DNA of 64,000 nt from an uncultured Desulfobulbus sp. (GTDB lineage: Bacteria > Desulfobacterota > Desulfobulbia > Desulfobulbales > Desulfobulbaceae). The stretch's first letter is position 1. Each line of letters starts with the position of its first letter. The notes beneath the pieces are model-generated. The model worked only from the letters and a program-made list of their open reading frames with translations. It ran no database searches and was not told the origin of the DNA. The DNA is taken from positions 3,900,601-3,964,600 of the forward strand of contig NZ_OY762276.1 in assembly GCF_963665445.1 (NCBI RefSeq), written 5' to 3'. This document shows positions 13,320-14,881 of the stretch, piece after piece. The translations under genes and the position numbers were made by a program.

Positions 13320-13412
13320 GCTCCCATTCCTCCTCAGGGATAAATCCCCTGGCCAAATACCGACCGATGCAATATTTTAGCAGAAGCGCCCACCAAACAA
13401 GAGGAACAACCT

Positions 13413-14579
13413 ATGCAATCCCCCACCCCCTTTCCCCAGCCCATTGCCAAGCCCCCGGACGCAGTCCCCCTGCTGCAGCCACCGCAGGCCGACTCCCCGT
13501 GCTGAGGCCCCAAACCTGAGCCCCGGGCCGGGGTTTATGAACGCGCCGGTTATCGTATCTGCCCTTTTGTGACCGATTTTATCGACACGCCGATAGGTCC
13601 GATCCCACGGATCGCCACCGTCGCCAATCGACGCGATCTCTGGGGCACTGTCGGCGCTCGGATCGGCATCATCCGCAGCCATTACCGGGTTTCCCCCGGG
13701 GTTTATGCGGTCGGTGCACCCTCGGCCGATGCACCGATCCTGGTCACGGCCAACTACAAACTGAGCTTTGACGCACTCCGCTTCCAGCTGACAGGTATCC
13801 ATGCCTGGGTTCTGGTGGTCGACACGCGTGGGATCAATGTCTGGTGTGCTGCCGGTAAGAGAACGTTTTCCACCCAGGAGGTTATCGCAAGCGTCAAGCG
13901 ATATCGGCTGGACGAACTGGTGCTCCATCGCGAGTTGATCCTGCCACAGCTGGCTGCCACCGGGGTGTCCAGCCAGGCGGTCAAACATGGCTGCGGGTGG
14001 ACCGTTCAGTTCGGTCCGATTCGTTCCACCGACCTTCCGGCCTATCTTCAGCACGGGAAAACCGCTACCCCTGCAATGCGTGAAGTCACCTTCACCCTCA
14101 AAGAACGGTTGGTTCTCATCCCGGTGGAGTTGTTCTTGATCGGCAAGCCGCTTTTGCTGCTCCTGCCCGTCGGATTTTTGCTCTCGGGCATCGGCCCGGG
14201 GATTTTTTCCCTGCACATGGCCTGGCAGCGGGGACTGCTCGTGCTTGCGGCCACGATAACGGGTATTGTCAGCGGCTCCATCCTCACCCCCCTCCTGCTT
14301 CCCTGGCTGCCGAGCCGCCAATTCTGGCTCAAGGGTCTCTTGGCCGCCTTGCCGGTCCTGGTTTGGGTGGAGCACATCCTGCCGATCCCCTCGCCTCTGG
14401 GCCAAGGAGCGCTTGCCCTCTGGCTGTTGACCATCAGCTCCTTTTGGGCGATGAATTTTACCGGCTCCACCCCCTTTACCTCACCAAGTGGTGTTGAACG
14501 GGAAATGCGGCGTGCCCTGCCGGCGCAGTGCCTGGGGGGACTAACGGCGACGATCTGCTGGGTCGCCTCGTCTTTTTAG
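13413..14579 (+). CDS. hgcA: Mercury methylation corrinoid protein HgcA, with in-frame TGA (probable selenocysteine)
   Basis: HgcA transfers a methyl group from a corrinoid to Hg(II). The cobalt-binding cap-helix motif NVWCAAGK is intact, and the C-terminal half has about five membrane segments. A TGA-free frame starts only at GTG 13569, which lacks a ribosome site. In the same frame an ATG at 13413 has GAGG 8 bp upstream and gives a Pro-rich N-terminus, then Pro-Cys-TGA-Gly at codon 31 and ERAGYRICPFV. From memory, HgcA homologues often carry a PCCG plus ERPGY-type N-terminus, so TGA would replace a Cys codon. The product would be 388 residues, with the cobalt-ligand Cys at 145. hgcB follows 14 bp downstream. 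Identity is very firm; the Sec reading is inferred. Confidence 0.9.
13506..13536 (+). promoter_or_regulatory. Candidate bacterial SECIS hairpin after the hgcA TGA
   Basis: Directly after the TGA (13503-13505) the mRNA can fold CCCC-GGGCC-GGGG, with the apical G-containing loop about 19-24 nt downstream of TGA, the distance expected of bacterial SECIS elements. Flanking AAA (13512-13514) and TTT (13534-13536) may extend it. Bacterial SECIS elements are poorly conserved, so this is only permissive evidence. Confidence 0.45.
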
Positions 14580-14593
14580 GGAGTGATCAGCGT

Positions 14594-14881
14594 ATGCACG
14601 GGTATCGGTACATCAAAGGCGTGGCCACCCTTGAGGTGCATGAGGAGCGTTGTGTCGGCTGCGGCAACTGCGTTGTGGTCTGTCCGCACCGACTTCTTAG
14701 CGTGAACGCAGGTATAGTTGCAGTGGTGGACGTCGATCTCTGCATGGAGTGCGGCGCCTGTGCGCAAAACTGCCCGGATGGGGCGATTTCGGTGCAACCG
14801 GGGGTCGGTTGCGCGGTCGCCATTCTTGGGGCCTGGATGAATCGGCTCCTTGGCAAAAAATTTTTTTCTGATTGCTGTTAA
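14594..14881 (+). CDS. hgcB: Mercury methylation ferredoxin HgcB
   Basis: 95 residues. A two-[4Fe-4S] ferredoxin that supplies electrons to, and may bring Hg to, HgcA. Motifs: C20-VGCGNCVVVC-P and C50-MECGACAQNC-P, an isolated Cys73 in PGVGCAVA, and a terminal Cys94-Cys95 pair, all diagnostic of HgcB. ATG 14594 follows AGGGAGTG. It forms an operon with hgcA (14 bp apart). Confidence 0.96.
   Translation: MHGYRYIKGVATLEVHEERCVGCGNCVVVCPHRLLSVNAGIVAVVDVDLCMECGACAQNCPDGAISVQPGVGCAVAILGAWMNRLLGKKFFSDCC

Follow-up and report, generated by a model that had tools for sequence, protein, structure and literature searches.

The hgcA gene of the window (the whole stretch of 64,000 nucleotides that was analyzed), which encodes the methylmercury-forming protein HgcA, is predicted to be a selenoprotein gene, with selenocysteine (Sec) inserted at the UGA codon 13503; we put the probability of this reading at about 0.94. 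Comparison with relatives and a search of the genome bring out a recoded codon, its replacement by a Cys codon, a SECIS hairpin and the Sec machinery, from which we infer Sec insertion in this organism. The features discussed below are collected in Table 1.

Selenocysteine in HgcA is already known in kind, and the window gene is one more member of the group. Table 1 of a 2026 review (PMC13188914) lists HgcA as a predicted selenoprotein with the motif CU (WP_250697417.1) and HgcB as a predicted selenoprotein with the motif GVGU. As its sources, the same table gives ref. 61 (the 2008 GOS selenium paper, PMC2398784, the HgcA claim of which is taken here from that table) and ref. 63 (Haft and Gwadz 2023) for HgcA, and ref. 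63 for HgcB. The window gene shares the family (NF040863) and the CU motif with the Sec-containing HgcA of the review, and no essential difference between the two is seen. A passage of PMC11588087, with reference to Haft and Gwadz 2023, likewise considers that selenoproteins may be present among hgcA and hgcB homologues. The main text of PMC7305189 contains no word beginning with "selen", and among the matches listed for HgcA, HgcB or methylmercury combined with selenocysteine or selenoprotein, no other paper title bears on Sec in HgcAB. The positional variants of Sec, the apparent exclusion between Sec in HgcA and Sec in HgcB, and the point on ND132 numbering, all described below, do not appear in the passages of PMC13188914 and PMC11588087 that deal with these proteins; they may be in Haft and Gwadz 2023.

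Table 1. Features of the hgcAB locus in the window and tRNA-Sec genes of the same genome
Feature	Position	Strand	Basis
Ribosome-binding-site-like GAGGA, 7-nt spacer to ATG 13413	13401..13405	+	sequence reading
hgcA with one Sec, 388 aa, TAG stop 14577-14579	13413..14579	+	NF040863 HgcA profile, CdhD Pfam domain
N-terminal tail of HgcA, residues 1-52, with Cys30-Sec31; low to moderate AlphaFold2 confidence	13413..13568	+	
TGA as predicted selenocysteine codon (Sec31)	13503..13505	+	TGA/Cys codon comparison across relatives
Predicted SECIS hairpin, arms 13517-13525 and 13529-13537, loop GGC 13526-13528	13517..13537	+	9 bp, comparison with relatives
GTG, earliest ATG/GTG/TTG past the TGA; truncated HgcA of 336 aa	13569..13571	+	sequence reading
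NVWCAAGK cap-helix motif, residues 142-149, with corrinoid-ligand Cys145 (Cys93 in ND132 numbering)	13836..13859	+	
hgcB, 95 aa, dicluster ferredoxin	14594..14881	+	NF040864, 110.1 bits, cut-off 99
HgcB Cys73 codon, TGC in the window; one clade of relatives has TGA	14810..14812	+	
HgcB C-terminal Cys94-Cys95	14873..14878	+	
tRNA-Sec genes	L001 1501-1598 (G000:C1:4525202); L002 1500-1597 (G000:C1:2290278)		ARAGORN and Rfam

Reading frame and codon usage at the predicted selenocysteine site

The frame that opens at ATG 13413 reaches its TAG codon with a single in-frame stop on the way, the TGA at 13503-13505, which lies in the context Pro-Cys-TGA-Gly-Pro. The product scores 404.3 bits against the NF040863 profile (curated cut-off 275), with the match beginning at residue 64. 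This score, the cap-helix motif N(V/I)WCA(A/S)GK with putative membrane helices after the corrinoid domain, and the adjoining hgcB are the features of HgcA membership present in the window gene. As the original prediction had it, the frame is preceded by a ribosome site (GAGGA), continues into HgcA and is interrupted by the TGA alone, and the next start, GTG 13569, is without a ribosome site: no GGAGG-like sequence is found in the 20 nt upstream of it. Annotation of HgcA from the next start after the TGA removes the Sec residue from the protein.

Relatives were collected from three sources. Of 577 stretches on named contigs that encode a relative, the best 80 were taken; in the order, 172 of 193 genomes gave a match at E <= 0.001, in many cases to related corrinoid proteins; and in the phylum, 114 of 395 genomes scored above the HgcA cut-off. 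The contig and order sets are biased toward the window's own kind, so that the fractions obtained from them should not be read as prevalences. The first set comprises 156 distinct HgcA genes, of which 70 have TGA next to the tail Cys codon, 38 have TGC and 18 have TGT; another 27 genes are without the C-(C/U)-(G/P) motif and three are cut. The enlarged set of 247 distinct genes was obtained from 280 loci by omission of 17 whose cap motif escaped detection by pattern (several of these are TGA forms counted in the first set) and of 16 duplicates. It contains 93 C-U forms (TGA), 88 C-C forms (58 TGC and 30 TGT), 63 genes without the motif and three cut ones. Neither TAA nor TAG occurs at this codon in the 156-gene set or in the 247-gene set. 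The Cys forms have an uninterrupted frame from an upstream start, and their flanking peptide is similar to that of the TGA forms. Alignment with relatives returns Cys opposite the TGA (a Cys codon in 56 of 156 and in 88 of 247 genes), which the original prediction had named as a sign in its favor. Homologues carry the pair at the corresponding position, as Cys-Cys or as Cys-Sec, in 126 of 156 and 181 of 247 cases.

Examination of the tails by eye adds further variants to those captured by the pattern. Four tails have Sec first and Cys second (L224, L229, L236 and L267), and five have a lone Sec with no adjacent Cys (L208, L222, L249, L269 and L282); the hairpin scan finds a stem of at least 5 bp in each of these. 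Two more C-U tails had been overlooked by the pattern (L069 and L215). With these eleven rows reassigned, tail Sec is counted in 104 of the 247 HgcA, in a set biased toward the window's relatives, and the tail pair is absent in 54; as many HgcA do without it, the pair is not a general requirement of HgcA. Judging by these sequences, Sec may be the second, the first or the sole member of the tail pair. An evenly drawn phylum sample of 97 distinct HgcA (7 of 104 loci, which lacked the cap motif, were omitted) includes 36 genes with Sec, 33 with C-C, 27 with neither and one that is cut. The 29 loci of family f39 comprise 23 C-Sec forms, four C-C forms, one cut gene and one ambiguous tail; two of these loci (L322 and L329) are from genomes already within the set of 247, and outside the 29 loci there are 17 more places above the HgcA cut-off, one of which (in G216) is L245, read earlier. 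A FastTree tree built from the HgcA core, which is not a careful one, has at least 17 changes between Sec and not-Sec, so the site has switched state repeatedly.

SECIS hairpin and selenocysteine machinery

The hairpin downstream of the TGA has a 9-bp stem, a GGC loop located 20 nt past the UGA and a folding energy of -11.9 kcal/mol, so that the G-containing hairpin at SECIS distance that had been predicted is indeed there, although, taken by itself, it is not significant against shuffled sequence. It satisfies the bacterial SECIS model as quoted in PMC13188914 (loop of 3-9 nt, stem of 4-16 bp, G in the first two loop positions, spacing of 16-37 nt and MFE <= -7.5), a model that is poorly specific by itself. 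The arrangement is like the SECIS of the E. coli fdhF type in that the hairpin lies about 20 nt past the UGA and has a G in the first two loop positions, but differs in that the loop is GGC in the window and the stem sequence and register vary by HgcA lineage. Many HgcA relatives have a GGUC-type loop, which we take to be like the loop of fdhF. Compared to dinucleotide shuffles, the window hairpin shows no significant excess (z of -1.44, -0.30 and +0.29 for 23, 46 and 83 nt, respectively), the minimum-energy structure of the 83-nt fold does not include it, and the combination of an open frame with a SECIS-like hairpin has 38 matches in the GC-rich 64-kb window. Given the shuffle test and these 38 matches, SECIS evidence from the single sequence was rejected as uninformative alone.

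It is the comparison with relatives that takes the window hairpin beyond chance. A stem of at least 5 bp is present in 84 of the 93 TGA forms vs 10 of 87 Cys forms (one of the 88 Cys rows was unscored), with a Mann-Whitney p of 2e-26 that is not corrected for relatedness. The mean stem of the TGA forms is 5.9 bp vs 3.7 bp in synonymous recodings of the same proteins, whereas that of the Cys forms is 2.7 vs 2.6 bp. For the window gene itself, the stem of 9 bp compares with a mean of 4.0 bp in recodings, and none of 300 recodings reaches 9 bp; by folding energy, the closest relative (L099) is not distinguished from its recodings (p 0.15). Tested gene by gene, only 33 of the 93 TGA forms and two of the 87 Cys forms have p <= 0.05 over synonymous recodings. 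The stem is rebuilt from different letters in different relatives, e.g., CCCCG/CGGGG, GCCAC/GTGGC, CTCCT/AGGAG, GGCTC/GAGCC and CTCCGCC/GGCGGAG. A single fixed helix imposed on 70 sequences was tried and is unsupported (60.5% of cells paired vs 59.3% when shuffled, and 66.9% when slid by +1) because the register shifts by one or two bases between lineages; this result counts against a simple covariation claim.

A search of the window genome (5,081,812 bases in one contig) identifies selA (613 bits), selB (369 bits), selD (359 bits) and two tRNA-Sec genes with the anticodon TCA (ARAGORN), both above the Rfam cut-off, so that selA, selB, selC and selD, for which the original prediction proposed to look, are all present. 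The selD gene (L188, G000:C1:5040875-5041816) contains one in-frame TGA of its own, and SelD of this genome is probably itself a selenoprotein. Among the hand-listed genomes of the order sample that encode Sec-HgcA, 56 of 58 have selA; the two without it, G135 and G188, are 85% and 84% complete, the latter having been assigned by deduction to the unlisted genomes without a match. As many as 171 of the 193 genomes of the order have selA, so this co-occurrence (Fisher p 0.025, relatedness not corrected) is weak evidence. Taken together, the TGA/Cys codon comparison, the SECIS in relatives and the Sec machinery support the replacement of the second Cys by Sec.

If the UGA were an ordinary stop, the functional protein would be made from GTG 13569 and the segment 13413-13505 would be a 30-codon leader. 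The 336-aa product does retain the folded core, the first strand of which (residues 53-59) begins there, and the laboratory enzyme from ND132 also counts in favor of this reading. In all 93 C-Sec forms, Sec precedes the cap-helix Cys by 110 (40 forms), 111 (one form) or 114 (52 forms) residues, and in the literature numbering of ND132 HgcA, as given in passages of PMC11588087 and PMC7305189, the cap-helix Cys is Cys93; hence ND132 HgcA as numbered must start downstream of the Sec site. The window HgcA read from GTG 13569 likewise gives Cys93, and HgcAB made in E. coli from the ND132 genes is described as active (PMC11588087). Against an ordinary stop stand the conserved peptide before and after the TGA, the 88 of 247 relatives that read through with Cys, the lack of TAA and TAG at the site in both gene sets, the hairpin that is mostly missing from the Cys forms (10 of 87) and the GTG that has no ribosome site; termination at this UGA is accordingly highly improbable. 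Misreading of TGC or TGT as TGA, or decay of the gene, would account for the Cys opposite the TGA and finds no other support, but TGA recurs at this codon in 70 of 156 distinct genes, drawn from many assemblies, and the SECIS hairpin is found mainly in these, which makes a sequencing error so very unlikely that it can practically be dismissed.

HgcB, its selenocysteine variant and the genomic neighborhood

The NF040864 match of the adjoining hgcB is reported from GTG 14528. Position 73 of the window HgcB is Cys (GVGC) and Sec is absent. The Sec-containing HgcB (NF040864, motif GVGU) is the same operon partner, with Sec in place of Cys73 in one clade, and differs from the window HgcB, which keeps this Cys. 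Sec-73 is present in 22 of the 213 operons with a readable HgcB (in 34 of 247, HgcB was not found by pattern). By HgcA tail, these 22 divide into six with C-C, 15 without the pair and one with the tail cut, and none is found among the 93 operons with Sec-HgcA. The exclusion between tail Sec and HgcB Sec-73 was rejected as independent support: despite the zero overlaps, Sec-73 changes only once on the FastTree tree, and an exclusion that involves one evolutionary event is weak. Among independent pairs, one differs in HgcB, six on supported branches differ in tail Sec, and no significant trend emerges. Hence a pattern of "one Sec per HgcAB" in these sequences is suggestive only. A more far-reaching proposal combines several of these points: the selenium of HgcAB would reside either in the HgcA arm or at HgcB residue 73, interchangeably and never in both, the arm would serve in mercury delivery, ND132 HgcA would have been studied without the arm, and selenium supply could tune natural methylmercury formation. 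As a whole, this proposal is distinctly doubtful.

An HgcB variant with a P-D-D-G-C-G-C-like sequence replacing G-V-G-C at position 73 (e.g., in L025, L027, L029 and L039) is found with Sec-HgcA in 32 of 33 operons. Downstream of hgcB, the segment 14885-15874 of the window encodes a protein in which a 2-thiouracil desulfurase domain is combined with DUF1722; it could have a part in the handling of sulfur or selenium. Among the 15 other listed genomes of the window's genus, two (G111 and G103) encode HgcA with at least 59% identity, one (G155) has a weak match (E of 2e-4) and 12 have none, so hgcAB appears to be patchy in the genus.

The N-terminal arm of HgcA and its putative role

In the AlphaFold2 model, built with 68 sequences, the HgcA core has a mean pLDDT of 91.6 and its first strand corresponds to residues 53-59. 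The mean values for the tail are 50, 55 and 59 over residues 1-30, and 78 and 83 over residues 31-50. From residue 229 onward, after the corrinoid domain, the model contains five long helices, the putative membrane helices. The loose tail of the model suggests that the Cys30-Sec31 pair is probably located on a flexible arm, N-terminal to both the corrinoid domain and the membrane helices.

Under the proposed mechanism, translation would start at ATG 13413, SelB bound to the hairpin 13517-13537 would bring Sec-tRNA-Sec to UGA 13503, and the ribosome would continue to the full-length HgcA of 388 aa, with Cys30-Sec31 on the flexible N-terminal arm. The Cys-Sec pair would then most likely act as a soft-metal ligand that captures Hg(II) or removes methylmercury, handing it to or from the corrinoid site. 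By analogy, such a mercury-handling role of the arm appears moderately probable. On the original prediction, Sec would matter here through the strong binding of Hg by selenium. In ND132, Cys94 and Cys95 of HgcB are located on a disordered tail where, according to passages of PMC7305189, either Cys is enough, the loss of both costs 95% of the activity, and the pair is proposed by the authors to deliver Hg(II). It is by analogy to this HgcB tail that the HgcA arm is taken to be a second soft-metal arm. The terminal cysteine pairs of MerA and HgcB, as described in the same source (PMC7305189), share with HgcA a flexible arm that carries the pair in a protein acting on mercury, but the HgcA arm is N-terminal, one of its Cys is replaced by Sec and its role is putative. 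In PMC13188914, a CU motif is also given for SaoL, a MerB-like protein.

Alternatively, Sec could be used for redox purposes rather than for Hg binding, either as part of a selenenylsulfide switch for the reduction of cobalamin or of a cluster, or in protection against oxidation; this reading concerns the role of the residue and not its decoding. Vicinal Cys-Sec pairs are found in redox selenoproteins, which is compatible with such a role, as are the five tails with Sec and no adjacent Cys, which would be unexpected for a site with two adjacent ligands. However, the Cys94/95 arm of HgcB in the same complex is interpreted by the authors as an Hg transfer device (PMC7305189), and the CU motif recurs in the MerB-like SaoL (PMC13188914). 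Overall, a redox role seems somewhat unlikely, and mercury handling by the arm is the preferred reading.

The comparison of Cys, Sec and SECIS over 247 genes provides separate data that support selenocysteine in many HgcA genes. Should the arm be important in the cell, work on HgcA constructs beginning downstream of it would have missed a mercury-binding part of the protein, and selenium availability would be a variable for methylmercury production.
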